Shown here piece after piece: positions 4,681 to 63,785 of a stretch of DNA of 64,000 nucleotides; within the stretch, counting starts at the first letter, position 1; every line of letters starts with the position of its first letter. The position numbers were made by a program, and so were the translations under genes. The stretch comes from Cytophagales bacterium (GTDB lineage Bacteria; Bacteroidota; Bacteroidia; Cytophagales; 172606-1): contig JAUJMU010000004.1 of NCBI GenBank assembly GCA_030446715.1, forward strand, positions 1-64,000, in the 5' to 3' direction. The notes under the pieces were generated by a model. That model ran no database searches and was not told where the DNA came from. It saw only the letters and a program-made list of their open reading frames with translations.

Positions 4681-5369
4681 TCAGGGTTTATCTGGCTTTG
4701 GAATTTCTATTTCCTTATCCCCGTACCAGACTTTATCTCCCTGGACAATTCCGTCTTTCCACTCAATTTTTGACTTTTTCTTTCCGCTTGGAAAAACTCT
4801 GCCAGATCACCGTTTATCCGTCCGTTAACTGTGTAATACTGGATTTTCAGATTGCCGTTTTCGTAGTAGATGGACATCAGTCCTTCGTCTCTTCCATTTT
4901 TCAGAAATCCCTCCGAAGCCAGTTGGCCGCTACGGTACCAGTACTGGTGTCTCCCCTGCCCCATGCCGTTCAGATAATCCCCCTGAAACCGGATCTGACC
5001 GTTGTCATGGTATTCCCGGAAGGTGCCTTCTTTCACAGCCTCCTTAAACCCGGGCACGTGCAGGTGAACCCAGTTCACAGGATTCTTTTTTGCAAGGTAA
5101 GATCCCGATGAAAAACGGTTTCCCGTTGACAGAAAAGTCTCCACTCTGTAGCGCAGGGTATCTTTCTTGTCCTGGATAATGACAGAGTAAAAATGCGCGT
5201 TTGGCTTGCCTGTGACTTTACCGGTACTGCTGTAGTAGATCGTATGGTTTTTTTGTGCATAAGAGTTACCGGCCGGCACAAACAGACAAAGCAAGGATAT
5301 ACAAAGTAAACTCAATGTGTAACCCTTGACCTTAGCCGTTGAATCAGAAGTATGAATACAGTTCTTCAT
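4681..5369 (-). pseudogene. YwqK/MORN-repeat-like exported protein, one frameshift near the C-terminus
   Basis: Residues 1-40 hold an N-terminal signal peptide ending LCLFVPAGNSYAQ. Then come repeated 'Y..NG....G.Y..G...G' units (EYHDNGQIRFQGDYLNG, YWYRSGQLASEGFLKNGRDEG, YYENGNLKIQYYTVNG), the hallmark of MORN-2/YwqK-type proteins. The tracked ORF ends at 4707 in an unnatural tail, but one base lost or gained in the TTTTT run near 4788 restores a fifth repeat (FFPSGKKKSKIEWKDG) and a stop at 4681-4683. The gene lies between two RHS genes on the same strand. Some YwqK proteins are described as antitoxins, so a link to the RHS partners is possible but unproven. Confidence 0.7.
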
Positions 5370-5450
5370 TGAAGGAATGTAAAACTTTATGATAAGATTG
5401 CTTTTTGTGATTTAATCTTTTACTGATGATCAGCCGCTTACTTGAAAGAA

Positions 5451-8400
5451 CTACTGCCCCTGATAATGATATTCCACTTTTTTAAGGATATTACCGTATT
5501 GGTCCCGGACAAGCCTGAGGCGATTCTCCCCATCATACTCATAGGAGACAATCATCCCGTTCTGATCTGCCTCCGTCAGCGGCCCCACCTGCTCTTTATA
5601 GGTGTAAGTGGTCATGACAGCTTCCGCCGGATGTAGCCTCAGTTCATCAAGCCGGGCTGTACCTGTCCGGACAGTGACTTTGCCGGGATTATCAAGTAGT
5701 TGCTCTCCATATTTCCAGTCCGTGCTTCCCGGAATAGCATTGCCGTTGACGGTTATACCGTTCCCTTTGTACCAGAAAGAAACCTTGTACTTTCCGGCCG
5801 GCAGATCACTTTCTGAGCTTACTTCTCCGCCGCTGAAAGATTGCGAGCCTGTTCTGGCATCACCCGCCTGACCGGCTGAATAATTCCAGTTGCCCTTGTC
5901 TCCGTAGGCTTCAAAACTGGTAAAGGCAACACTTTTATGACGTGCATTCATCACGCGGGCAATGATAAAAGTCCCGTTGTTCCCGAGTACAGTACAGGCA
6001 GGAGGGCTGTTCAGCGCCTGTACTTCCAGCGCATTCCCTCTGGTATCATAGGAGTCAAAGATGGATTCGGCGGTAAACCGGGAGGCATCGTAGCTGAATG
6101 CACCAGTGGATGTGAGGGTTGAAAAGCGGTAATTTGAGGGGTCTGCCGGTGCAACTGATAACGGGGTAAGAAGAAGCAGTTTAAGTGTCCGCTTAGGAAC
6201 AATGAGATTATATTTTAACTGGCTGCCCACTGCTCCGGTACCCGGAGATAGTACATAAGTAAACTGGTACCACGGGTACCCTTCTGGTTTGCTTACATAG
6301 TCAAATTCATTGAGAGTAGCAGACAGAAGCTGCTCTTCTCCACCGCCGGTCTGCTGCCAGGTCTGGGTCTCCAGTACCACAGAGGTCATATTTCTGCGCA
6401 GCATCTCATTGACAGCAGCCTTTCTGTCTTTGATTCCCAATGTTTTGTAGATGTCATCAGGATTTGGATCCTCTGGAATATCGGGGTAGTCCGACGGATA
6501 CTTAAAACGTTTGATTATTTTTTTGCCGTTTCCGTCCGCGGCTATTACTTCTGCCACCTGAAGATTGGCAGCATTATAGCTGTATCCGGTTGATGATTCG
6601 ATGAATTCAGTCTCAGAATCCTGATTATAATGTCTGTCTGTAACTTTTGTTACAAAAACCCACTCGGGCACCTCTGTGTATTTTCCGAAATATGAAAAAG
6701 CCGGAAAACCATAATTCGCATTCCGGTTGATGATTTCCTCCGAATAAAAAACTAACCCCGGCAGATGTTTACTTTCGTCAGTTTCTGTTTTGAATCCATA
6801 ATCTGTGTGCCGCCAGCTTCTGATCCGGCCTCCTTCAGTATATGACCTGACGTCAGTTGTTAAGCCGCGCCGCCATCTGCGGCTGGCTTTGGTCATGTAG
6901 TCCAGCAAAAACTTCTCCTTGCTACTGTTAAAGTTCTGGTCTAGCCGCTCCTTTTTAAACATCCGGTAGACTTCGGGCGAAATGTCTCTGTTCTCCGGCT
7001 CTTTGAATGAAGTAAAGGAGTGCACCACCTGACCCTTGCCAGGTTGTTTAACGGTAACCGTGCTGTAGATTATTTCATCAGAAATATTGGCGGCCTGCGA
7101 TGACCGGATCAGATAATAACCAGCGGTGATTTGGGCAGACAATTCTTCAATTAAATTTGCTATAAAAGGGTTAAGTTTAGTAAAAGCCGTGGAGAAAGAT
7201 GTTTTGGTACGATCGGTAACAATCATCGGGCGGTTATACAGATCAGTCGAATACTTTCCCGTTACTTTTGACAGAAAAGAGTCATCTACCGTGCCACTTG
7301 ACCGGGCAGCATTACTTTCTTCAGTATAATAATATTCGGTTATCATATCATTTGATGAGTTAAGACCATCACTTGTCGTGACTCTCTCAATTCTTAATCC
7401 TCCCCAGTCCTCATCAGCCCTGGTAACGGGATTCCAGTATTTATGGCAGCCGTACTCGTATCTTGTCCATCCACCGGTTGGAAAAGTGATCTGAGTAAGA
7501 ATACAAGCTTTCATTTTGGCTGCATTGGGACCACGGTCAGCTCCAGCCCTCTGGTAAGGTTTATTTTCATCAATATTGAGATACTCTTCTCTTAAAAGAA
7601 ATTCTGGTAAGCCCGCTCCTGTATAGCGGCAAGCGGGTATGCCATGAGAGTTGTCCTTACCGTTGTAATACCCCCAATAGTCAATCATGGGAGAATTTCT
7701 CTCCGGCAATGTTTCGTTCAAATTATAGTTAAAGTAAAAGGGTGGCTTATTTCCTTCCTGAATCCGGTCTAAACGTAACCTCAGGTTGGAGTTAACCCCA
7801 AAATAGGAGTAGAAAAAGCTGATACTCCTGGTTGTTTCACCGCTTCTGCTTCTGGAAGTGATTGATTCTAACTTCTTACCATTATCCTTCCTGCTGTCTG
7901 AGTAACTGAGCCGTATTTCATCACCGGTCTCCGGAGAGTATATTCTTGATAGGTAACGGGGGTTTTTAATGGTAGTTGTTCTTTCAACTGTTGTATGGAA
8001 GAGCTTGTAATTATCTGGTCCTGGTTCAATAACTGGCATATAACATATACCAGATGAATTATCAGCCGAGAACGTTTTTAAATGATCATACCGTACCTGA
8101 TCAAAATCTTTATTGATTATGCTGATACCAGTTTCATATTCAAATACTGCCTCAACATTACCAGTAGGAGAAACTATTTTCTGTAGGTGCCAGCTGGAGG
8201 TAAAGGTTGTAGTAATGGTTTCACTCGCCCAGCATGTTGTAAACCATGGTAACACTGTCTGGCATTCGGTTTCTTCAAACAAGGCACTGCTCCCGGGCAC
8301 CCTGTTCCACATTGGCATCCCCGAAGAGGTAGCTTACGCCATCATTGGTGGTGATGACCCACGTATAATACTTTTGATCCGTGCTGTAATCTCCTACCGG

Positions 8401-49670: not shown

Positions 49671-50330
49671 TCACAGCAGAGTCTGCGCAACGCCCAGCGT
49701 GTACAGAATCATTACCCCCATTTGCTCCCGGAGAGCCCGCATGGCCCTGAACATCAGATTCTTCACCGACTGGTAGTTGATATCCATCACTTCGGCGATC
49801 TGGTCATAACTGAGGTCACTGTAAAACCGGAGAAAAATAATTTCCCGCTGATTCTGACTCAGGCCCGCTACCGAAGCTTTCAGCCGCTCCTCCTGCTCAG
49901 CCGACAACTGGCTGCTGATCAGTTCTGATTCAAAGGAAAAAGAGAAGCTGAAGTGGTAATCTTCTCCCGGTGTTCCTGCCAGAGAGAGCCGGTTTTGCCG
50001 GGCTGAGGCCCTTAGAATTTTATGCTTCAGTGCCTTGAGCAGATAAAGCCGGATGGAATCGGTAGTACCAAGATGCTGCCTGCGTTCCCAGAGTTCAACA
50101 AAAAGATCGTGCAGAGAATCTTCAGCTAGCCGGTGGGTGTGAGCAATTTTCTTCCCGTAAGTAAGCAGTACCCGGGCATGCTCCCGATAAATCCGGGCAA
50201 AGGCCGCTTCACTGCCCGCCCGGAAATCCTCCCACAAAGCCACATTCTGCCTTTTCTTCTCCCGGAGCAGAGCACCTGTTGCGTCAGGCTGGTCAGCGGC
50301 TGATTGCTTGTGCAGAGGATTTGATACCAT
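49671..50330 (-). CDS. ECF-type RNA polymerase sigma factor
   Basis: Region 2 is AFARIYREHARVLLTYGKKI with the -10-contacting SLHDLFVELWERR. Region 4 is GLSQNQREIIFLRFYSDLSYDQIAEVM plus the recognition helix YQSVKNLMFRAMRALR. An N-terminal extension of about 30 residues is present. In Bacteroidota such factors pair with a FecR anti-sigma factor and an STN-type SusC receptor; those two genes lie divergently on the other side of an IS982. It would activate the 51590-63785 locus when the receptor binds its glycan. Confidence 0.9.
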   Translation of the reverse strand: MVSNPLHKQSAADQPDATGALLREKKRQNVALWEDFRAGSEAAFARIYREHARVLLTYGKKIAHTHRLAEDSLHDLFVELWERRQHLGTTDSIRLYLLKALKHKILRASARQNRLSLAGTPGEDYHFSFSFSFESELISSQLSAEQEERLKASVAGLSQNQREIIFLRFYSDLSYDQIAEVMDINYQSVKNLMFRAMRALREQMGVMILYTLGVAQTLL

Positions 50331-50448: not shown

Positions 50449-51484
50449 ACGTGAGTTATCGAGGTAATTAATTGATAGAGAAACACTTAAAGCAAGAAGT
50501 CCAACACAGTTGCACAAAGAGTAGTTTAAGGAATTGTCACAAACCAAGAAACTACTACAATGAGAACCATACTGGACAGCTTAAAGTTAGTTGAAATCTT
50601 CATTGCCTGCGATGACTTTTGTAAACAATTCGAGCAGTACTCTATGCAAGAGAACGATGAGCCGCCGAAACAAAGACAGATGAGCGATAGTGAAATGATG
50701 AGCATCCTGATCTTTTACCATCATTCGGGCTTCAAGTGCTTCAAGTACTACTATGAACAGATCATTTTAAGAGCCATGCGCAGCTATTGGAAAAACCCTT
50801 ATGCCTATGCGGCTTTTGTGGCTCAGATACCAAGAGTCAACTTTGTCTTGTTTGCTTTCCTTTCGGCTTGTCGTTTAGCTGCCACTACGGAGGCCAATTA
50901 CGTTGATTCTACCCCCCTGGTAGTGGCCCACAACCGCAGAAAACAGAGCAACAAGACCTTTAAAAACCTGGCCAGAACCGGTAAAACCTCTACTGGCTGG
51001 TTCTTTGGCTTCAAACTTCATGCGGTCATTAACCAAAAAGGGCAATTAGTCGTCTTCCGCATCACTACGGCTAATGTAGCCGATAACAACCATGATCTGC
51101 TCGAAAAGCTTACTCAAAAACTCAAAGGCTTTCTCTACGGAGACAAAGGGTATCTGACCGGGCTGGCGGCCAGACTCAGGGAAAGAGGACTGGAAATCGT
51201 AACCAAATACCGAAAAACAATGGGACTGCAAGCAATCACTTACAAGAAAAACTACTATCTCTCCCATCGCGGACTGATTGAAACCGTATTTGACTGTCTC
51301 AAAAACCTCTGCGACCTGGATCACTCCCGGCACCGGAGCCCTTTGAACTTTTTTATCAACCTCTGGTCGGCGCTTATTGCCTATACCTTCTTTGATCAGA
51401 CCCCTTCCATTACCCCTTTCAAAGAACGTATTGCCCAATCCTGCGAAATTGTAGTTATCTAAGAACCTACTATATAACTCACGT
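50449..51484 (+). mobile_element. IS982-family insertion sequence, complete
   Basis: The ends are inverted repeats (ACGTGAGTTAT and ATAACTCACGT). A 7-bp direct repeat TAATCTA flanks the element at 50442-50448 and 51485-51491, a normal duplication size for the family. It is 1036 bp and contains one full transposase gene. It lies in the divergent promoter region between the ECF sigma and FecR genes, so it may separate or alter their regulation. Perfect ends and an open frame suggest recent insertion. Confidence 0.95.
50560..51462 (+). CDS. IS982 transposase
   Basis: This is a full 300-residue DDE transposase. The motifs NYVDSTPLVV (first Asp), FLYGDKGYLTG (second Asp) and HRGLIETVFDCLKN (Glu) are intact. 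The N-terminal QRQMSDSEMMSILIFYHHSG is family-typical. It is the only complete transposase in the window without frameshifts. Confidence 0.95.
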   Translation: MRTILDSLKLVEIFIACDDFCKQFEQYSMQENDEPPKQRQMSDSEMMSILIFYHHSGFKCFKYYYEQIILRAMRSYWKNPYAYAAFVAQIPRVNFVLFAFLSACRLAATTEANYVDSTPLVVAHNRRKQSNKTFKNLARTGKTSTGWFFGFKLHAVINQKGQLVVFRITTANVADNNHDLLEKLTQKLKGFLYGDKGYLTGLAARLRERGLEIVTKYRKTMGLQAITYKKNYYLSHRGLIETVFDCLKNLCDLDHSRHRSPLNFFINLWSALIAYTFFDQTPSITPFKERIAQSCEIVVI

Positions 51485-51589: not shown

Positions 51590-52648
51590 ATGAACGAAGT
51601 AAACTATTCCGGTTTTTCGGTGGAGGATTTTCTGGTCGACGAGTATTTCCAGCAGTGGGTGCTGCAGCCCGGCCGGGAAACGGATTTGTTCTGGCAGGCC
51701 TTTCTGCGGGCCAATCCTCATCAGCAAGCCACGGTTGCCGAAGCAAAAGCATTGCTGCAGGCACTCCGGTTTGAAGAAGACAGGCAGCAACAAGCTACCG
51801 CTCAGGTGGAAAATGTATGGCAGCGGATACAAATCACCCGGCAGGAAGCGAACCTTGGTGGTAGTGGCCCCGGTGTCCTCAATCCGGTTCCGATGTGGCG
51901 TCGGCCCGTGTACCAGCGGGTAGCCGCCGTATTTACCGGCCTTCTGGTTTTTGCAGCCTTGCTCTGCTACTCGCAGGGTTTCTTCCGTACGCAACAGTAT
52001 ACGGCCGGATACGGGGAATTGAAATCAATCATCCTTCCCGACGGGTCGGTGGTGGTGCTTAACGGCAACTCGACGCTTCGCCATGCCTCCCGCTGGGATG
52101 GCACAGGAACGCGGGAAGTTCAGCTGGAAGGCGAAGCCTTTTTTAAGGTAACGCATACGCAGAGTGATCAGAAGTTCGTGGTCCGCACCACTTCGCCGAT
52201 GGCCGTGGAGGTACTGGGCACCCAGTTTGTGGTCCGGAGCCGTCCCAGCGGGGCAAGGGTCGTGCTGAGCTCGGGCAAAGTAAAACTTCACCTCGACCAG
52301 GGACAGGCCGTCCGTCAGGTAACGATGCGGCCCGGCGAAATGGTAGAACTGAACGGATCGGCGGAGGGCTATTCCCAGAAAATGGTAAACCCCGAACACT
52401 TTACCTCATTCCGTCAGCGCAAACTGCTGCTGAAGGATACGCCGATCCGTGAAATCGTATTGCTGCTTCAGGATACCTACGGGCTGGATGTTCAGGTGCC
52501 CGACCCGGCGGTGCTCAACCAGCGGATCAGCGGCTCCATACCGGCAGGTAATGTAAACAGCCTGTTATTCGTGCTTTCCCAGGCCTTCGGGTATCACATA
52601 AAGAAAGAGGGCAACCAGATCATTCTGGAGGAAAAATCCTCCCCTTAA
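51590..52648 (+). CDS. FecR-family anti-sigma factor
   Basis: The N-terminal ~90 residues are the cytoplasmic sigma-binding part (SVEDFLVDEYFQQWV). A single membrane segment (RVAAVFTGLLVFAALLCYS, ~105-125) follows. The periplasmic FecR domain includes YGELKSIILPDGSVVVLNGNSTL and REVQLEGEAFFKVTH. A C-terminal DUF4974 domain (LLLKDTPIREIVLLLQDTYG, GSIPAGNVNSLLFVL) contacts the STN domain of the receptor. It holds the ECF sigma inactive until SusC signals. It is followed 101 bp later by susC. Confidence 0.95.
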   Translation: MNEVNYSGFSVEDFLVDEYFQQWVLQPGRETDLFWQAFLRANPHQQATVAEAKALLQALRFEEDRQQQATAQVENVWQRIQITRQEANLGGSGPGVLNPVPMWRRPVYQRVAAVFTGLLVFAALLCYSQGFFRTQQYTAGYGELKSIILPDGSVVVLNGNSTLRHASRWDGTGTREVQLEGEAFFKVTHTQSDQKFVVRTTSPMAVEVLGTQFVVRSRPSGARVVLSSGKVKLHLDQGQAVRQVTMRPGEMVELNGSAEGYSQKMVNPEHFTSFRQRKLLLKDTPIREIVLLLQDTYGLDVQVPDPAVLNQRISGSIPAGNVNSLLFVLSQAFGYHIKKEGNQIILEEKSSP

Positions 52649-52749: not shown

Positions 52750-55700
52750 ATGAAGAAGCTGAAATTCTACTGTTTTCTCCTGCTCCTGCCTGCACTGGCC
52801 GTTCCGGCAAATGCCCAGCAACTAGTGGCTTCGGGCGCCTCCGACCGGGTACTGCTTGCTAAAAACCAACCCACTCAGGAGGGCCAATCACTAAGCCTGG
52901 AAAAAGTGCTTTCCGGCCTGGAGTCGCGGTATAAGGTCTCTATTGCCTACAAGAGTGACCTGATCCGCGACAAAACCGTGCAGGGATTCAAAGCTTTCAA
53001 AACTGTGGATGAGACCCTCCGGCGCCTGCTGCGGCCGCACAACCTCGAATACCGGAAAGAAGGCTCCGTGTACGTGATTGTCGGCGCAAACCGGAAGGAG
53101 GCAGCCGGGACACCCGCCAACAGCGGCGACACCTCTGACGCTGCCGGCCCGGACCAGCGGACCACCCTCAGTCTGGATGGCCTGAGAAGCCTGCCGGTCA
53201 ATACGGCTTCGGGCAGGGCAATCACCGTGGGCGGACGGGTGACCTCTGAAAACGGAGAAGGAATCCCCGGCGTGAATGTGCTGCTGAAAGGCACTACCAC
53301 CGGCACTACTACCACTGCAGAGGGTACTTACAGCCTTGAAGTTCCGGATGGCACCGGCACCCTGGTGTTTTCCTTTATCGGCTACGTGACGCAGGAAGTA
53401 CCCGTGAACAACCGGACCAGCATCAACGTAAATCTTTTGCCGGATGTAAAATCACTGACTGAAGTAGTGGTGGTGGGATACGGCACGCAGGAGAAAAAAG
53501 ACCTGACCGGCTCGGTTTCTTCCCTGGACAGCAAGACAATCGCCGACCGGCAATCCATTCAGTTGTCCGACGCCTTGCAGGGCACTATGGCGGGGGTAAC
53601 GGTTACCCGCGGCGGTGGTCAACCCGGAGCCGCCTCTACCGTACGCATCCGGGGTGTTACGTCACTCAATGTCAATGATCCGCTGGTGATTGTGGACGGC
53701 GTACCGGGGCTTGGCCTTAACGACATCAACCCCAACGACGTGGAAAGCATCACCGTTCTGAAAGATGCCGCTTCGCAGGCGATTTACGGGGCCCGTGCCG
53801 CCGCAGGCGTGATTCTGGTCACGACCAAGCGGGCTAAGGAAGGAAAGCTACAGGTGGGCTACGACTACGAATACGGCATTAACACTCCCACCCGCCTGCC
53901 TTCTTTCGCTGATGCCCGTACCTACCGCATTCTGGCGAACGAACGGTCCCGGAATGACGGCGGCGGCAACATCTTCAACACGACCGAAAACGACAACTAC
54001 GCGCAACTGCACGCCGGTGACCCCGACAAATATCCCGACACCGACTGGCAAAAGGCGGTACTGGGCAAGTCCACTACCAACCGGCACCGCCACGATCTGT
54101 CGGTAGCCGTAGGCAGCGAAAAGGTAAGGACCCGCGCCTCGTTCAGCTACGTAACTGAAGATGGGCTGTACCCCAACCGCAACTACGAACGGTATACCTT
54201 CCGGGTCAACAACAACTTCCGGCTGAGCCGTATGCTGGAGGCTAACATTGATGCGTATTACAAAAGAACCAATACCCTCGACCCCACCCAGGGAAACGTA
54301 ATTGCCCTTGCAAGGCGGTTTCCAGGCATATTTCCCGCCGTCCGTACGGATGGACAGTGGGGAGAAGGCAAAGATGGCGAGAATCCATTGGCCCAGACCG
54401 CTGCCGGCGGCACCACTGAGCAGCGTTACAACCAATACAGCGGCATCATCGGACTTACGCTGACGCCACTGGAAGGTCTGAGCATCCGGGCCAACCTGGC
54501 ACCTACCTTCAACTACGACGCTTTTGATCAGTTTACCACCCCTGCCCTGATTCCCCGGCAGGGCAGCACGACGCAGTTCTGGCCCCAGAACCCGACCCTT
54601 CTTGAAAAGCGCCAGACCTCTTTTACCAATCTGACGAGGCAGGCTACAGTTGATTACCGGCGGAAACTGGGCGACCATACCCTCAGCGGCCTGGTTGGTT
54701 ACGAAGAAATCAGTTCGGATTTTGAGCAGGTCCGGACCACCAGCCGGAATCTGGCCGTCAACCTGCGGTCACTGACTTTCGGCGATCCGGCCCTGACCAA
54801 TAACAATCACTTTGCGGTACAGAATGCCCTGCGGTCTTTCTTCGGCCGGGTGTCCTACGACTACAAAGGCCGGTACCTGGTGCAGTCCAACCTCCGGACC
54901 GATGCTTCCTCGCGGTTTGCGGCCAACAAGCGGTGGGGACTTTTTCCCTCCGTTTCGCTGGGCTGGGTGGTTTCCAGTGAAGCCTTCAGCCTGCCCGGCT
55001 TTATCTCTTTCCTGAAGGTAAGGGGTTCTTACGGCGTGGTAGGCAACGAACGGATCGGGGAAGCCCGCACGGGAGGCGAGGAGTTCTTCAACTATTACCC
55101 TTATCAGGGCCTGTTTGAACGGACCAACGTGGTCTTTTACGATGGCAGTTTTGTTTCCAACACCGGCATCCGGCAGGATTTTCTGGCCGACCGGTCTATT
55201 CTCTGGGAAAGCACCCGTACCGTTGACGCGGGCCTTGACATCAGCCTGTTCCGGAATAAGTTCTCGTTTTCCGCTGACTATTACCGGAAGACCACCAACG
55301 ATATTATTCTGACGCTGGACATTCCCAATTACCTTGGCTACGAAGACGACACCAAGACCAACGTCGGATCCATGAAAGTAACCGGAATGGACTTTGAAGC
55401 CGGCTACCGCAGCAGCATTGGCGGCTTTACTTATTCGGTCAGCGCCAATGCCTCCGCCGTCCGGAGCGAAGTGACCAACGTGGGCGGCCGCCGGGATTTC
55501 ACCACCGAAGGTGGCACCAAAATCAACATATTGGGCAGTGAATTCAACGAATGGTTCGGCTACCAGACGCGGGGCCTCTACCAGACCAGGGAGCAGGCCG
55601 ATGCGTACGGCACCGGCGGCATGCCCGGCGACATCTGGATCGTGGATCAGCTTACGGTAGACACGGATGGGGACGGTATTCCCGACGCCGGCGACCGGAT

Positions 55701-56229
55701 CATCAACGAAAGAGACCGGGTGCCGCTGGGGGCTTCCCTGCCCAGGTTCACCTACGGCGGCAACCTTTCGGCGGGATTCATGGGATTTGATCTGTCGGTG
55801 GTGTTCAACGGCGTAGGCAATCATACCCGCCGGTACGCCGGCTTTCAGGTGCGGCCCTTTAGTGAGACGTTCGGCAACATCCCTTCCAATGTACTGGCCA
55901 GCTACTGGAGCCCCGAAAATACGGCGGAGCAAAACGAGGAAGCCCGGTATCCGCGCTTCTCCGGCCGCTCCGAACGCAACAACTACGCCGTATCGGATTA
56001 CTGGCTGTTCAACGGCAGTTACTTCCGGATGAAAAACATTACCCTCGGCTACTCCCTGCCACCCGCACTTACCGGGCGGGTGAAACTGTCGCAGGTCCGG
56101 TTTTATGCTTCGCTGCGGGACTTTATTACCATTGAGCGGAATTTTCTGAACGGCTGGGACCCGGAAGTAGACGACACCGGATACCCGATCATGAAATCCG
56201 TTCTCTTCGGGCTGAATGTAAAATTTTAG
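52750..56229 (+). CDS. SusC/RagA TonB-linked outer-membrane receptor with an STN signalling domain
   Basis: A signal peptide (FCFLLLLPALAVPANAQ) precedes an STN domain (~45-115: SLEKVLSGLESRYKVSIAYK, TVDETLRRLLRPHNLEYR). Next comes a carboxypeptidase-regulatory-like domain (~155-235: GGRVTSENGEGIPGVNVLLK) and the SusC signature LTEVVVVGYGTQEKKDLTGS. The plug follows (DALQGTMAGVTVTRGGGQPG, IRGVTSLNVNDPLVIVDGVP), then the 22-strand barrel. It imports glycans with SusD and, through STN and FecR, switches on its own operon. The 1159-residue length is normal. Confidence 0.95.
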   Translation: MKKLKFYCFLLLLPALAVPANAQQLVASGASDRVLLAKNQPTQEGQSLSLEKVLSGLESRYKVSIAYKSDLIRDKTVQGFKAFKTVDETLRRLLRPHNLEYRKEGSVYVIVGANRKEAAGTPANSGDTSDAAGPDQRTTLSLDGLRSLPVNTASGRAITVGGRVTSENGEGIPGVNVLLKGTTTGTTTTAEGTYSLEVPDGTGTLVFSFIGYVTQEVPVNNRTSINVNLLPDVKSLTEVVVVGYGTQEKKDLTGSVSSLDSKTIADRQSIQLSDALQGTMAGVTVTRGGGQPGAASTVRIRGVTSLNVNDPLVIVDGVPGLGLNDINPNDVESITVLKDAASQAIYGARAAAGVILVTTKRAKEGKLQVGYDYEYGINTPTRLPSFADARTYRILANERSRNDGGGNIFNTTENDNYAQLHAGDPDKYPDTDWQKAVLGKSTTNRHRHDLSVAVGSEKVRTRASFSYVTEDGLYPNRNYERYTFRVNNNFRLSRMLEANIDAYYKRTNTLDPTQGNVIALARRFPGIFPAVRTDGQWGEGKDGENPLAQTAAGGTTEQRYNQYSGIIGLTLTPLEGLSIRANLAPTFNYDAFDQFTTPALIPRQGSTTQFWPQNPTLLEKRQTSFTNLTRQATVDYRRKLGDHTLSGLVGYEEISSDFEQVRTTSRNLAVNLRSLTFGDPALTNNNHFAVQNALRSFFGRVSYDYKGRYLVQSNLRTDASSRFAANKRWGLFPSVSLGWVVSSEAFSLPGFISFLKVRGSYGVVGNERIGEARTGGEEFFNYYPYQGLFERTNVVFYDGSFVSNTGIRQDFLADRSILWESTRTVDAGLDISLFRNKFSFSADYYRKTTNDIILTLDIPNYLGYEDDTKTNVGSMKVTGMDFEAGYRSSIGGFTYSVSANASAVRSEVTNVGGRRDFTTEGGTKINILGSEFNEWFGYQTRGLYQTREQADAYGTGGMPGDIWIVDQLTVDTDGDGIPDAGDRIINERDRVPLGASLPRFTYGGNLSAGFMGFDLSVVFNGVGNHTRRYAGFQVRPFSETFGNIPSNVLASYWSPENTAEQNEEARYPRFSGRSERNNYAVSDYWLFNGSYFRMKNITLGYSLPPALTGRVKLSQVRFYASLRDFITIERNFLNGWDPEVDDTGYPIMKSVLFGLNVKF

Positions 56230-56280: not shown

Positions 56281-57969
56281 ATGAAAAACTTGAAATACAT
56301 CATTGGCTCCGCCCTCCTGCTGCTCTGGGGTTGCGCCGACCTCGACGTTACGCCCAAGACGGCCATCTCGTCCGGTAACTTCTTCACCAACGCCAAAGAG
56401 CTGGAAATCGGCCTCAACGGGTTATACGACCGGAATCTGTGGAAAGTAGACCAGGATTACTGGTCGGATGACATGCTGCACCGGGGTGGAGGCGGCGTGG
56501 ACAACGACATTTCCCGGGCTACGCTTAACTCTGAATCGGGACTTTCAGGTGAGTACTGGCGGGACCTGTACGACGGCATCAAACGGGCCAATACACTGCT
56601 GGAGCAGATGCCGGGGGCACGGGCAAATGTCAACGAAAGCGTTTACAACCGGATTGAAGGCGAAGCCAGAGCCATCCGGGCGTATTTCTACAGCATACTG
56701 CTCACCAAGTTCGGCGATGTGCCCCTGATCACCAAAGCTGTTGACGTGGATGACGCCCTGAAGCTGGCCCGGACACCACAGGCCGAAGTTCTCCAGTTTG
56801 TGTACAATGAACTTGATGCCGCGGCGGCTGTATTGCCTAATGCCAATGCCAACCGGGCCACCAAAGGATTTGCGCTGGGAATCAAAGCCAGAACCGCCCT
56901 GTACAACAATGATTTTGCCGTGGCCCGCGACGCCGCCAGGGCCGTGATTGACCTTGGCACCTATTCCCTTGACCCTAACTTCCGGAACCTGTTCCTGAAA
57001 GGGGGCGCCAGCAGCAAGGAAATGATCTACTTTGTACCGCTGTCCTTTACTTTAAATGTAACGTTAGATAACAACACTACCCGGGGCTATCTGCCCCGCA
57101 ACGCCGGCGGATTCGGGGCTCAGATGCCGACCTGGGAAGCTTTCCACGCCTTCGAGGCGGCTGACGGACTGCCCATCGACGAGTCGCCGCTGTACAACCC
57201 GCGTGCCCCTTTCGCCAACCGCGATCCCCGGCTGAAGCAGACCATCGTGGAGTTTGGCACCGACTGGCTGGGCTATGTCTACCAGCCGCACCCGGATTCA
57301 ACGCGTACGATCAACACCGTTACCCGCGTCAGGGTAAATAACAACGACACCCGTTCGGTAGCTACGTTTGCCTCCTTTACCGGCTTTCTCTGGAAAAAAG
57401 GCATTGAGCAGTCATGGGCCGATACCCGGCTGGCCGACCCGAATATCATCATTCTCCGGTACGCCGACGTGCTGCTGATGTACGCCGAGGCCCTGATCGA
57501 ACTGAACGAGAACCTGGACGCCGCCCGGAACGCCATCAATCGGGTAAGGGCCCGCGCCTACGGCACCACGGTAGCGAATACCGCCGCGTACCCCGCCGTG
57601 CCCGAAACAAGTCAGACTGCCCTGCGCACCCGGCTCCGGCGTGAACGCCGCACCGAACTGATGCTGGAAGGACTGCGCTACCAGGACCTGATCCGCTGGC
57701 GGATTGCGAAAAAAGCGCTGGACCGCCGGGTGCTGGGCCTGCCCAACCCCACCGACCAGATCCGGAGCCAGTGGCCCTTCACCACCACCATTCTGCCGGA
57801 TGTGGACCCGGATGGGGTAGTCATTTTCAATGTGGATGCTTTAATTGCCAATAAATACGCCCGGCTGCTGCAGGACTACGATTTTGACGAGTCGCGGATG
57901 TACCTGTGGCCGGTGCCGGCCGCTGACCGCCTGCTGAACCCCAGCCTGACCCAGAACAGCGGGTACTGA
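56281..57969 (+). CDS. SusD/RagB outer-membrane glycan-binding lipoprotein
   Basis: The lipobox is LLLLWGCADLDVTPKT. SusD signatures follow: LEIGLNGLYDRNLWK, YWRDLYDGIKRANTLLEQM and EARAIRAYFYSILLTKFGDVPLI, with TPR-like helices. The C-terminal RHS-type conserved block contains ILRYADVLLMYAEALIELNE, INRVRARAYG, RRERRTELMLEGLRYQDLIRW and the terminal LWPVPAADRLLNPSLTQN. It sits as a lid on the SusC barrel. The gene starts 51 bp after susC. Confidence 0.95.
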   Translation: MKNLKYIIGSALLLLWGCADLDVTPKTAISSGNFFTNAKELEIGLNGLYDRNLWKVDQDYWSDDMLHRGGGGVDNDISRATLNSESGLSGEYWRDLYDGIKRANTLLEQMPGARANVNESVYNRIEGEARAIRAYFYSILLTKFGDVPLITKAVDVDDALKLARTPQAEVLQFVYNELDAAAAVLPNANANRATKGFALGIKARTALYNNDFAVARDAARAVIDLGTYSLDPNFRNLFLKGGASSKEMIYFVPLSFTLNVTLDNNTTRGYLPRNAGGFGAQMPTWEAFHAFEAADGLPIDESPLYNPRAPFANRDPRLKQTIVEFGTDWLGYVYQPHPDSTRTINTVTRVRVNNNDTRSVATFASFTGFLWKKGIEQSWADTRLADPNIIILRYADVLLMYAEALIELNENLDAARNAINRVRARAYGTTVANTAAYPAVPETSQTALRTRLRRERRTELMLEGLRYQDLIRWRIAKKALDRRVLGLPNPTDQIRSQWPFTTTILPDVDPDGVVIFNVDALIANKYARLLQDYDFDESRMYLWPVPAADRLLNPSLTQNSGY

Positions 57970-58160: not shown

Positions 58161-60668
58161 ATGTCTTCAGCTTCTTTTTTAGCTCCCCGCCGGATTTTGC
58201 TGTGCGCGGCGTACCTGCTGCTTACCCTTTCCTGCGGCACCAAACGACCACAGGAGGCGGCAGTAGAGAAACCAGTCAATATCAGCGGCGTGTATCCGCA
58301 CCTCGCCTACTATAACAACGAAGGAGAATGCGGTACGGGCGCAGTAGTACCCTTCGCTGACCGCCTGTGGGTGATTACTTACGGGCCGCACCTGCCCAAC
58401 GGCTCTTCGGATAAGTTGTATGAAATCACGCCCGACCTGCAGCAGATCGTAAGGCCGGAAAGTACCGGGGGCACGCCAGCCGACCGGTTGATCCACAAGG
58501 AAAGCAATCAGCTTTTCATTGGGCCTTACGCCATTGATGCAAAGCGAAACGTAGGGGTCATTCCCTACACCGAAGCACCCGGCCGCTACACCGGGGCTGC
58601 CCGGCACCTGACCGACCCGGCTGGAAAGATATACATGGCCACCATGGAAGAGGGCTTTTACGAAGTGGACGTGAAAACGCTGAAAACAAACCTGCTCTAC
58701 GAAGATGGCAACGTGAAAAACAAAAATGCGGAGGACACTCAGCACAACCAGCCCAACCCATTGCTGCCCGGGGCGCACGGAAAAGGGGTATATTCCGGCC
58801 AAGGGGTGCTGGTGTACTCAAACAACGGGGAAGCCTCTCCTGAAGCACTGAAGCAGTTTGATATTGCATCTGGTGTGCTGGCTGAGTGGAACGGCAAAGA
58901 CTGGAAGGTGGTGCGCCGGGGTCAGTTTGTGGAAGTGACCGGCCCCGGTGGCATCTACGGAAATCAGAATCCGGAAACGGATCCCATCTGGGCGACCGGC
59001 TGGGACCACAGATCGGTGGTGGTTGGCGTACGGGACAAAGGTGCGTGGTCTTTTTACCGCCTGCCCAAGGCCAGCCACAGCTACGACGGTGCCCACGGCT
59101 GGAACACCGAATGGCCGCGCATCCGCGACGTAGGCACGGCAGGCAAACCTGACTACCTGATGACCATGCACGGCATGTTCTGGAAGTTTCCGCAAACTTT
59201 CACAGCGGCCAACTCCGCCGGCATCCGGCCCCGGTCGGCGTACCTGAAAGTGATTGGCGACTTCACCCGCTGGAACGACCAGTTGGTGTTTGGCTGCGAC
59301 GATTCGGCCCAGAAGGAATTCCTCAACAAGCGAAAAGTAAAGGGCAATATAGAGGGGCCAGGACAGTCTAATTCCAATCTTTGGTTTACTTCATTTGATC
59401 TTCCTGATCAATTAGGGCCTAAAACGGCTGAGGGTGCCGTGTGGTTAAAAGAACCGGTGAAAGCAAATGAGCCTTCCGAAGCCTTTCTGTTCGCCGGCTG
59501 GGCTCACCGCTCCGCGTGGATCATGAATGACGGCAAGACGAAGGTTGACTTCACCTTCCAGACCGACGTGAAAGGCACCGGCAACTGGCAGCCGCTCCGC
59601 ACGGTATCCGTAGAGCCGGGCAAGGCGGCACAAGTGGAGTTTTCCCCGAACGAATCGGGCGAATGGGTACGCGTAACTACTAATGCGCCAACTACGGCTA
59701 CCGTGCATTTTTACTACGCTGCCGAGGACAAGCGGCCCACCACCCCGGACGGGATATTCAACGGGCTGGCAAAAGTAACAGACAGTCAGGCAATAGGCGG
59801 GCTGCTTTACGGTTTAGGGGACAACCGCCGTGCCCTGGGCATTTCAGTACAAAACCTGAACGGAAACGAAAAGTCCGGCGCCGGCTATTACGAACTGGAC
59901 GCGCAGATGAAGCTGACGCCGAAAAATGACCCTAAAACACTGGAATTCATCAACCAGAAATTTGCCATTCCGAAAGATGTGATTACCGTGGAGGAATCAT
60001 CCGTGCTGGTGACCGACGATCTGGGGCGGCGGTGGCGGCTGCCGCTGGGCAATGATGCTTTTGCCGGACTGACCAGATCGGCTTCTACCCGCATTGCCCG
60101 CGAAGTGGCTACCGAACGGGACCTGCTCAACTGCATGGGCACTTTCTACGAACTGCCCGCCGAAAACGCCGACGGTTTTGCCAAGATCCGGCCGGTATCG
60201 TCGCATAATTTACGCATCCACGACTACGCCAGCTACCGGGGCCTGCTGGTAATGACCGGCATTGACCCGGCTGCCGCCAAGGGCAATCCGCACGTAATTG
60301 CATCGGAAGACGGCAAAGCCGCCGTGTGGGCCGGGGTGATTGATGATTTGTGGAAAATGGGCAAGCCCACCGGTAAAGGCGGCCCATGGAAGAATACAGC
60401 GGTCAAAGCCAACGAACCTTCCGACCCGTACCTGATCGGCTTCTACGACAAGCGCAGACTGACGCTTTCCCATGACCGGAAAGAGCCGGTTACCTTCCGC
60501 ATCGAAGCCGAACCGGTAGGGCACGGCCCATGGATGATGTACCGGGAAATGACCGTAGCTCCGGGCAAAACAGTGGAGTACACCTTTCCGGATGGTTTTC
60601 AAGCCCGCTGGGTCCGGTTTGTCGCCGACAAACCCGCCGTCGCTACTGCCTGGCTTACCTATGAGTAA
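58161..60668 (+). CDS. Large surface or periplasmic lipoprotein of unknown function in the PUL
   Basis: I start at the internal ATG 58161, giving a lipoprotein signal (RILLCAAYLLLTLSCGTKR); the tracked start at 58023 would read through the intercistronic hairpin. The mature 815 residues are beta-rich with propeller-like segments (RLWVITYGPHLPNGSSDKLY, RNVGVIPYTEAPGRYTGAAR, KGVYSGQGVLVYSNNGEAS). Two C-terminal stretches resemble each other (VKANEPSEAFLFAGWAHR near 435; VKANEPSDPYLIGFYDKR near 750), each followed by a beta-sandwich pattern ending in 'AT..F/WL.Y'. I do not recognise a family. Position after susD and before sulfatases suggests glycan binding or cleavage. Confidence 0.6.
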   Translation: MSSASFLAPRRILLCAAYLLLTLSCGTKRPQEAAVEKPVNISGVYPHLAYYNNEGECGTGAVVPFADRLWVITYGPHLPNGSSDKLYEITPDLQQIVRPESTGGTPADRLIHKESNQLFIGPYAIDAKRNVGVIPYTEAPGRYTGAARHLTDPAGKIYMATMEEGFYEVDVKTLKTNLLYEDGNVKNKNAEDTQHNQPNPLLPGAHGKGVYSGQGVLVYSNNGEASPEALKQFDIASGVLAEWNGKDWKVVRRGQFVEVTGPGGIYGNQNPETDPIWATGWDHRSVVVGVRDKGAWSFYRLPKASHSYDGAHGWNTEWPRIRDVGTAGKPDYLMTMHGMFWKFPQTFTAANSAGIRPRSAYLKVIGDFTRWNDQLVFGCDDSAQKEFLNKRKVKGNIEGPGQSNSNLWFTSFDLPDQLGPKTAEGAVWLKEPVKANEPSEAFLFAGWAHRSAWIMNDGKTKVDFTFQTDVKGTGNWQPLRTVSVEPGKAAQVEFSPNESGEWVRVTTNAPTTATVHFYYAAEDKRPTTPDGIFNGLAKVTDSQAIGGLLYGLGDNRRALGISVQNLNGNEKSGAGYYELDAQMKLTPKNDPKTLEFINQKFAIPKDVITVEESSVLVTDDLGRRWRLPLGNDAFAGLTRSASTRIAREVATERDLLNCMGTFYELPAENADGFAKIRPVSSHNLRIHDYASYRGLLVMTGIDPAAAKGNPHVIASEDGKAAVWAGVIDDLWKMGKPTGKGGPWKNTAVKANEPSDPYLIGFYDKRRLTLSHDRKEPVTFRIEAEPVGHGPWMMYREMTVAPGKTVEYTFPDGFQARWVRFVADKPAVATAWLTYE

Positions 60669-60770: not shown

Positions 60771-62126
60771 ATGGATTTGCTGAAAAAGATGATCGGTTTC
60801 TGGTTTTTAGTGACCGCTGTTCTATCGCTGAAGGCGCAGCCGAAAGCAGACAACCGGCCTAATTTCATCATCATCTATACGGATGATCAACGGCGCGATG
60901 GGTTAGGAATCAATGGCAATCCGGTAATCCAAACGCCCCTGCTTGACCGGATGGCCAAAGAGGCGGTTCGGTTTACCAATGCCAATGTGGTATTTTCTCT
61001 GTGCAGCCCCATCCGGGCCGCTCTCCTGACCGGCAGATACGGGAGTGCAAACGGGGTGTTGCACCTGGAGAGCGCCCTACGGAAGGGAGAAAAGACCATT
61101 GCCCATTACCTGAAAGAGGCCGGTTACCAAACCGCCGTCTCGGGCAAGTGGCACATTGACCAGCGCCCCAAAGCGGTGGGCTTTGATTTTCATGCTTTCT
61201 TTGAAGGCAACGGATCCTATTACAACCGGCTGATCCACGACATGGGAAAGGACATTAAGCCCGAAAAACACTGCGATGAATACTGCGTAGATCGTTCAAT
61301 TGATTTTTTACAAGGGGCGGTGAAAGAGGATCAGCCCTTCTTTTTATTTCATTGCACCCAGCTTCCGCACATGAATGATGAACTGAAATGGGATGCCAAA
61401 GCAGAGACCCTGGCAAAATACAATGCCGCCGGTATGCCCGTGGCAAAGAACAGAAAGGATGACTTATCCGGTAAACCGGATTACTTAAAGCAGGTCAGGA
61501 ACCGCACCCAGGCATCCGCGTACGGTTACCCTGCTCCTCAGGCAATACAGCAGCATACGAAAGAATATTATGCAGTAATATCGGAGATGGATGATGCCCT
61601 GGGAAGGCTTTTCGAAGCCATTGACCAACTGGGACTACGGAAAAATACCTATATCATCTTCATGAGCGATAATGGTTGGATGTTGGGTGAACACGGATTT
61701 ACCAGTAAGGTCCTGCCATATGCGCCTTCAACCCAGGTGCCTTTGTTTATCCTCGGTCCGGGATTAACACCCCGCCTGAAAGACGAGCTAACCTTAAATA
61801 TTGATATAGCGCCCACTATATTAAACCTGGCAGGAATAAAAATACCGGCGAACCTGCACGGGAAAAGCCTGGTACCTTTGATTACCGGAAAAACGAATAA
61901 AATACGTGACTCCTTCGTGTATGAAGGGCTGGGAAACTACGGCGGAGCCAGGCCGAACCTTACGGTTATCAGTAAGCAATACCGTTATATTGAGACCTAT
62001 GCAGATGAATCGCTGAAAAAGATTGCTTTTCAGGAATTGTATGACCAGGCGAGGGATCCGGATGAAATGATTAATCTGGTTAACGATAAGCCTTACCAAA
62101 AGAAAGTGAGCGAATTTAAGTCTTAA
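60771..62126 (+). CDS. Type I sulfatase (formylglycine-dependent)
   Basis: A signal peptide (IGFWFLVTAVLSLKAQ) precedes the alkaline-phosphatase-fold domain. The metal-binding start is RPNFIIIYTDDQRRDGLG. The activation motif CSPIRAALLTGRYG follows, with Cys78 to become formylglycine (C-x-P-x-R). VSGKWHIDQRP and FMSDNGWMLGEHGF complete the active site. It hydrolyses sulfate esters, most likely on a sulfated polysaccharide taken up by this locus, and needs a separate formylglycine-generating enzyme or anaerobic maturase (none in the window). All motifs are intact. Confidence 0.95.
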   Translation: MDLLKKMIGFWFLVTAVLSLKAQPKADNRPNFIIIYTDDQRRDGLGINGNPVIQTPLLDRMAKEAVRFTNANVVFSLCSPIRAALLTGRYGSANGVLHLESALRKGEKTIAHYLKEAGYQTAVSGKWHIDQRPKAVGFDFHAFFEGNGSYYNRLIHDMGKDIKPEKHCDEYCVDRSIDFLQGAVKEDQPFFLFHCTQLPHMNDELKWDAKAETLAKYNAAGMPVAKNRKDDLSGKPDYLKQVRNRTQASAYGYPAPQAIQQHTKEYYAVISEMDDALGRLFEAIDQLGLRKNTYIIFMSDNGWMLGEHGFTSKVLPYAPSTQVPLFILGPGLTPRLKDELTLNIDIAPTILNLAGIKIPANLHGKSLVPLITGKTNKIRDSFVYEGLGNYGGARPNLTVISKQYRYIETYADESLKKIAFQELYDQARDPDEMINLVNDKPYQKKVSEFKS

Positions 62127-62281: not shown

Positions 62282-63785
62282 ATGGTTAGGAATGCGATCC
62301 TGCTTTGTATGATTCTTTTTGTCTTTTGAGGGTTCCCTTGCCCAGAAAAGCCAGAAGCCCAACATCATCCTGATTTATACCGATCAGCACCGGTACGATG
62401 CTCTGGGAGCGTACGGAAATAAAAGGATAAAAACGCCTAATCTTGATAAACTTGCTGCCTCTGGCGTATATTTTCCCGAAGCTTTTGTCACTTCTCCCGT
62501 ATGTACGCCCTCCCGGTGGAGTTTACACAGCGGTATGTATACCACCAGCCATCAGAGTTATTCCAATCACCATCCCGGCGTGCAACCCCCAACCAACTTG
62601 CCTTTAGAATTAAAGAACGCCGGGTACGCCAATGCGCTGATCGGAAAGAACCACAGCTTCGTAGGAGAACGGGAGTTTATGCTGATTCAGGATGTACCCC
62701 GGAAGGAAAGTAAACGCATGGCAACGGAGGCGGCTCCCTGGTCTGTTGAAAATGACCCGATGCACCTTTAACCAATTACACGCTTAATTTTATGGCGGAT
62801 AACGTCAAGCGTGAGCAACCCTTCTTCATCTGGCTTTCTTATTTGTACCCGCATACCCCCTACGAAGTCCCGGAGCCTTATTTCTCCCTGTACAAAGATG
62901 TTACACTTCCGCCCTTGCGCGTAGAGAAAGAGGGGCTGATGGCTGCCAACAAACCGTTTCGTCAAGTATTTCACCAGGAAAATAATGACCGCCTGTTGCC
63001 TTTTGATGACAAGCAGGTGGATGCCATGCGAAAGACGTATTACGGTATGGTCACGTTAGTGGACGATGAGGTAAAAAGGATAACGGACTTTCTGCAGGCC
63101 AATCATCTGGCAGGTAACACCATTATCATCTTTACAAGCGACCATGGCGACTACCAGGGCGATCACGGAATGTTCACCAAAAGCCCGGCCCTTTACGACT
63201 GTCTGGTAAGGGTTCCCCTGATTTTCTCCTGGCCTGGCACAATAGCTGGAAATGTCCGCAGTGATCAATTGATTTCGCAGGTAGATATTATGCCTACTTT
63301 GTTATCCTTTGCCGGTGTACCGATTCCAAAACAGGTTCAGGGCGTTGATATTTCTGAGTATTTGCGCAAAGGAGCCACCCAAAAACCGCTACGACAAGAA
63401 GTATACGCCGAGTATGGTATTCCCGGAGCGCCTTTTGACCGGCCAGGCTGGAGAAGGTATTCCCGGACTATAAGGAGAATCCGATCACTTTTGCCGTGGG
63501 TATTCCATGGGAAGCCAACCCAGTGTCATTGGCCGGAAGATTCAGGATGATCCGCACGCACGACTGGAAATACATTCATAATCCGGGGAAAAGAATGAAC
63601 TCTACAACCTGAAAAAAGACCCCCATGAGTTGAAAAACCTAGCTGGACTAAAAAAGTACGCCCGCATCCAGCACCAACTCAACACCACATTAACGGCCTG
63701 GAAGGAGGATCTACCCGCAAGTGAAAGGGACCAGGAAAACCTTGTGGATGACTTTATCCAGAACTTTGCCATCAAAAGGAGGTAA
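62282..63785 (+). pseudogene. Second type I sulfatase, four frameshifts
   Basis: The signal peptide starts at 62282 (MVRNAILLCMILFVF), then a shift near 62325 leads to QKPNIILIYTDQHRYDALGA and the activation motif CTPSRWSLHSGMY. Another shift near 62770 leads to QPFFIWLSYLYPHTPYEVP and IIFTSDHGDYQGDHGMF. Shifts near 63450 and 63580 connect the C-terminal THDWKYIHNPG and NELYNLKKDPHELKNLAG to a stop at 63785. Once rejoined it would be about 500 residues with all active-site motifs. It is inactive as written; the last shift lies in a G run. It probably acted with the upstream sulfatase on different sulfate positions. Confidence 0.85.

Follow-up and report, generated by a model that had tools for sequence, protein, structure and literature searches.

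A conserved SusCD-linked beta-propeller protein of Bacteroidota with an old internal duplication and a possible role in glycan cleavage

The window, by which we mean the whole 64,000-nucleotide stretch of Cytophagales DNA that was analyzed, contains a run of genes for a divergent sigma factor, a transposase, a FecR protein, SusC, SusD, a large protein that we call Q, a sulfatase, and a second, broken sulfatase (Table 1). Q is encoded by a clean, stop-free reading frame of 835 codons, and its N-terminus reads as a hydrophobic signal followed by TLSC with a lipobox-like Cys25, in agreement with the original prediction of an 835-residue lipoprotein. The gene starts 191 nt downstream of susD, which it had been said to follow, and lies on the same strand as the adjoining SusC and SusD genes, which by position makes it a SusCD-type PUL component, as had also been proposed. 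No terminator-like site was found in the 191-nt gap, and nothing in the sequence spoke against co-transcription of Q with susCD. The statement that Q precedes sulfatases held for one intact gene; the second is broken across frames.

In the closest relative (L001), the sigma and FecR genes are divergent with no transposase in between. In the window, the transposase at 50560-51462 separates the two divergent genes and may affect regulation. In L001 it is the first sulfatase that is split (141 + 302 aa), and the following one is intact (504 aa), the opposite of the pattern in the window; this is either reciprocal decay or an assembly error. A transposase-like ORF starts right after the broken sulfatase (L089 6954-7463; about 63954 in the window). 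In addition, the same genome holds a decayed second copy of the Q locus (L088, C14:218000-232000, at about 5156-7586), of which there remain a FecR fragment, some 30-50 residues of Q, a truncated first sulfatase, and a fragment resembling the second.

Table 1. Features of the Q locus, with positions in the window
Feature	Position	Strand	Basis or remark
ECF-type sigma factor, divergent	49671..50330	-	Pfam; same divergent order in L001
Transposase (DDE_Tnp_1_3)	50560-51462		Pfam; between sigma and FecR genes
FecR-type anti-sigma factor	51590..52648	+	Pfam
SusC TonB-dependent transporter (STN, CarbopepD_reg_2, Plug, barrel)	52750..56229	+	Pfam
SusD	56281..57969	+	Pfam SusD_RagB, E 5e-45
Q (835-aa SusCD-linked propeller lipoprotein)	58161..60668	+	Translation, genome scan, AlphaFold model
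Q signal peptide, lipobox-like TLSC, Cys25	58161..58235	+	Sequence
Predicted seven-bladed beta-propeller, about residues 54-433	58320..59459	+	Model strands, blades by hand
Repeat copy 1, residues 279-520 (last blades + sandwich)	58995..59720	+	hhalign against copy 2
First VKANEPS, residues 433-439	59457..59477	+	Sequence
Predicted beta-sandwich 1, residues 441-522, counterpart of PLipase_C_C-like C-terminal domain	59481..59726	+	Model, copy alignment
Connecting region, residues 533-607	59757..59981	+	Model
Repeat copy 2, residues 608-835	59982..60665	+	hhalign; PLipase_C_C 763-817
Second VKANEPS, residues 748-754	60402..60422	+	Sequence
Intact sulfatase, SGSH_C type, CSPIR motif	60771..62126	+	Pfam Sulfatase, E 2e-54; SGSH_C
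Second sulfatase, pieces in different frames	62319..63550	+	Fragments 62319-62771 and 62792-63550

The fold of Q is predicted with high confidence by AlphaFold2 from 77 aligned sequences, both at full length (pLDDT 91.7, pTM 0.90) and for the N-terminal unit alone (pLDDT 88.6, pTM 0.90). Assigning blades by hand from the DSSP strand list, we count seven four-stranded blades (residues 58-433) in the modeled N-terminal half, which had already been described as propeller-like, with the first sandwich after it. The connecting region is modeled as four strands (543-588), probably a blade, and then a helix (591-600). On the same hand assignment, the second part of Q would comprise about four blades (543-748) and a second sandwich (765-834).

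The motif VKANEPS occurs exactly twice in Q, once in each of the two similar modules noticed before, and the repeat is larger than was seen then. Residues 279-520 align with 608-835 over 227 columns at 29% identity (E 4e-47, hhalign, profile-profile), and a profile of the N-terminal unit picks up the second copy in long forms from other genomes with E-values of about 1e-34 to 1e-41. A recent origin of the duplication was rejected because the copies are this divergent and are common to the long forms; similarly, the codons for VKANEPS differ between the copies, which are therefore not recent. Judged by sequence, the duplication is genuine and old, and it extends further than was first reported. 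Blades 1-3 are not represented in the second copy, which therefore lacks most of the invariant residues described below. A clade of single-unit forms of about 480 aa also exists; some of these are encoded beside long copies, and others, with no long copy, adjoin sulfatases or SusCD. One candidate single-unit form (L125) was set aside: its reading frame extends to the end of the contig, which makes a truncated long form the probable explanation, and the tree groups it with a long form.

Profile searches and structure prediction gave no confident match of Q to an unrelated known family, and the description of the family as unrecognized essentially stands. Pfam reports PLipase_C_C (PF05506, the C-terminal domain of bacterial phospholipase C) at residues 763-817, a region modeled as beta-sandwich, with a marginal 25.7 bits against a cutoff of 24.4 (E 2.2e-5); it finds nothing beyond these last ~55 residues, and the first copy falls below the cutoff. 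A phospholipase reading of Q was dropped because this accessory domain alone matches and Pfam detects no phosphoesterase domain. Searches with Q in NCBIfam and PHROG gave zero matches, a PDB sequence search with Q, a single-unit relative, and the family profile gave no convincing match, and the phage records searched held no relative; the plasmid records held one, annotated as hypothetical. Foldseek, run with the full model and with the N-terminal unit, listed generic propellers and propeller-sandwich enzymes, all with low TM-scores (among the 50 PDB matches listed, the best TM-score to the query was 0.41, for a generic propeller), and against the viral library it found only such folds, likewise at low scores. 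In the titles and abstracts that were searched, the family is nowhere described, which is weak evidence of absence. Q belongs to a family of widespread bacterial cell-envelope propeller proteins to which the libraries searched assign no function.

Q is not special to the genome of the window. One scan of a species-level genome collection found relatives encoded at 470 places, and the best 80 of these are 66-82% identical to Q over almost the full length. Nearly all of the 80 are Bacteroidota by name, and Cytophagales, Prolixibacteraceae, and Chitinophaga stand out among them. The distribution is patchy: the family is present in 4 of 297 genomes sampled from the whole phylum and in 50 of 391 from the order. 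Both SusC and SusD occur in 56 of the 67 loci with at least 6.5 kb of upstream sequence, and SusD is the direct same-strand upstream neighbor of Q in 49/80 loci. The gap between SusD and Q among the relatives' loci has a median of 69 nt, and some gaps are short or the genes overlap.

Most of the relatives' loci carry no sulfatase, and Q is therefore not tied to sulfated glycans. Partners across the loci include GH29, GH95, GH78, GH2, GH3, GH92, GH116, GH127, GH28, and GH27 enzymes as well as sulfatases and transporters. At the other extreme are 19 loci, mostly in Dyadobacter and Spirosoma, in which SusC, SusD, and Q, together with a divergent sensor-regulator, make up the operon. The divergent 450-aa protein (L040 1735-3093, minus strand, and 18 other loci) has no Pfam match and is apparently, from its sequence, a membrane-spanning sensor-regulator. 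Beyond Q, the sampled minimal loci contain mostly unrelated genes (nitronate monooxygenase, Crp, Mqo, GGT), so that Q is usually the sole candidate degrading protein in these small operons; the exceptions are a GDSL esterase (L044) and a GH28 on the opposite strand (L078). A simple pattern assigns a type I signal peptide to 44 of 76 family members and a lipobox to 23, so a lipid anchor is not a feature of the family, and one paralogue carries a T9SS tail.

Among the invariant residues of the propeller, 14 make up the candidate set: E56, Y74, H77, R109, H112, R142, E163, H206, K208, D282, K303, E317, R320, and R322. H77, H112, H206, Y74, R109, and R142 lie mostly on one propeller face, as far as the strand order tells. 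We took as the top face the D-A and B-C loops, which again depends on the hand assignment of blades from DSSP strands. All 77 rows keep 11 of the 48 charged residues on this inferred top face, against 1 of the 36 on the bottom, with a Fisher p of 0.011 that is inflated by kinship between the rows; leaving out K394 gives p 0.02. K394 itself no longer counts as a universal site, since all of the held-out relatives have a gap there. Five held-out relatives (33-42% identity) keep 19-20 of 21 chosen sites against 23-31% of the other polar positions, a test that is not fully independent, since the alignment used to choose the 21 sites already included three short forms.

Conservation is highest in the propeller and far lower in the sandwiches: in the 69 long forms, 151 of 403 propeller positions are invariant, against 10 of 82 in the first sandwich. 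Mean pairwise identity is 0.69 for Q against 0.46 for the adjoining SusD, and the SusDs paired with Q drop to 22% identity at their most divergent, where the Qs remain above 62%. The divergence of Q and that of SusD are correlated (Mantel r 0.45, p 0.001).

That Q is a new glycan-binding or glycan-cleaving protein, as the original prediction had it, is plausible; the observation was right and, if anything, understated. Our preferred reading, to which we give a probability of roughly one half, is that Q serves a SusCD glycan-import operon as its envelope partner and is an enzyme of a new beta-propeller family. The mouth of the seven-bladed N-terminal propeller would hold a glycan chain or oligosaccharide, and the 14 residues would form a strictly conserved basic, His-rich pocket there. 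This pocket would cleave an acidic glycan; the most plausible route is His/Arg beta-elimination as in the propeller lyases PL24, PL25, and PL42, with hydrolysis as the alternative. Accessory or binding roles would fall to the first sandwich and the partial second copy, and the products would pass through SusCD or onward in the periplasm. We infer the single pocket from the invariant residues, together with its catalytic role, the acidic substrate, and the lyase chemistry; His, Arg, and Lys abound in the invariant set alongside several acids, which is what one would expect of a site for acidic glycans.

One close analogy is to PL24, PL25, PL42, and the related GH145 (LOR_107, PLSV_3936, FoRham1, and BT3686), which share the seven-bladed propeller of the Q model and use neighboring histidines with an arginine and a tyrosine as catalytic residues (PMC8377490). 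The candidate residues of Q recall this set, with His, Arg, and Tyr mostly on one inferred face; they are spaced differently, and Q has the extra sandwich and the partial second copy. Pfam finds neither BNR_4 (PF15892) nor any other profile of these families in Q at E ≤ 1, and none of the 50 Foldseek PDB matches listed is a closely superposable propeller of this group. These searches do not place Q in PL24, PL25, or PL42; by analogy it may possibly work as they do. The fucoidan lyase FdlA was rejected as a model because it is a beta-helix (PMC9410043). Hydrolases of the GH43 and GH183 type (e.g., 8ic1 and 3nqh) resemble Q in having a propeller and then a sandwich and give low Foldseek E-values, but their TM-scores are about 0.25-0.31 and they have no sequence match to Q. 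Propellers of the GH43/GH183 type are five-bladed.

Against an enzyme stands the fact that Q has no sequence or close fold match to a characterized one. In addition, conserved charged patches are also found in binding proteins, the minimal loci may use enzymes encoded elsewhere, and the great variety of partner enzymes points to no obvious linkage that all would share.

The main alternative, which we consider less probable and on balance unlikely, is that Q is an SGBP (a SusE/SusF-like lipoprotein) that captures the chain for SusCD, its propeller and two sandwiches binding with no catalysis. The Q of the window, a lipoprotein directly after SusD, sits in the usual SGBP position, and SusD is the direct upstream neighbor in more than half of the 80 loci. 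Beta-sandwich modules are present, a catalytic-family match is absent, and several loci encode cleaving enzymes beside Q. SGBPs, however, diverge fast, whereas Q is more conserved than its own SusD; Q also differs from them in its large propeller and in giving no SGBP-type Pfam match. Over half of the family has a type I signal peptide and appears soluble, and this, with the T9SS-tailed paralogue, fits an enzyme better than a tethered binder. The members with no lipid anchor and the minimal Dyadobacter and Spirosoma loci both disfavor a pure surface binder. We favor an enzyme over a binder because the invariant charged residues concentrate on one inferred face, because the chosen sites persist in held-out relatives, because the residue set is lyase-like, and because the lipid anchor is not universal; taken together, the conservation pattern, the absent anchors, and the minimal loci tilt the reading towards cleaving.

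It is quite improbable, in our view, that Q is a non-catalytic structural or assembly partner conserved through contacts with SusC or SusD. The frequency of SusC and SusD beside it, the correlated divergence of Q and SusD, and the constancy of SusCD while partner enzymes vary would all suit such a role. The correlation, however, is expected from shared descent alone, SusD falls far below Q in identity, unlike co-evolving interfaces, and the single-unit forms L126 and L127 adjoin sulfatases with no SusCD in the stretch read. Equally improbable is an enzyme of other chemistry (e.g., an esterase, or a partner of the adjoining flavin redox proteins) acting on sugars oxidized or reduced in the envelope. 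In its favor, 26 loci have an FAD oxidoreductase cluster (PF12831) in the neighborhood of Q, to which ApbE and a protein bearing a TGAT flavinylation-like motif are added in three Chitinophaga loci. Against it, we recognized no flavin motif in Q, most Q loci, including that of the window, have no such oxidoreductase, and similar ones occur elsewhere in this genome without Q.

Returning to the cleaving enzyme, a bolder version of it, which we hold only tentatively and at somewhat less than even odds, is that Q founds a new CAZyme family. This family would pair a seven-bladed propeller with a His/Arg/Glu pocket acting on an acidic linkage common to many glycans, and it would exist in hundreds of Bacteroidota species as a single unit of about 480 aa and as an 830-aa form whose partial second copy lacks most of the pocket.

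What we have is a large, conserved, unnamed family with a candidate site, and not a new kind of system. Its interest lies in being a conserved SusCD-linked family across hundreds of Bacteroidota species with no function in the libraries searched. Should Q be an enzyme, it would give a new CAZyme family and reveal the nutrients that the small Dyadobacter and Spirosoma loci serve to exploit; should it be a binder, its high conservation and the absent lipid anchors would run counter to how SGBPs are usually pictured. In both cases, the 480-aa single-unit form is a small, expressible target with a short list of residues.

Two further neighborhoods may be mentioned. Downstream of Q in the three Chitinophaga loci (L042 10460-14428, L068, and L077), the TGAT-motif envelope protein, the PF12831 oxidoreductase, and ApbE stand in a row, which suggests an envelope redox step in glycan use. 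In L128 (24-9187), a single-unit Q adjoins SusCD, and the genes after it encode an unmatched 704-aa protein, a Zn-dehydrogenase, a DHDPS-type aldolase, a transporter, a lactamase-fold protein, and an enolase-superfamily protein, a gene set that looks like a sugar-oxidation pathway.
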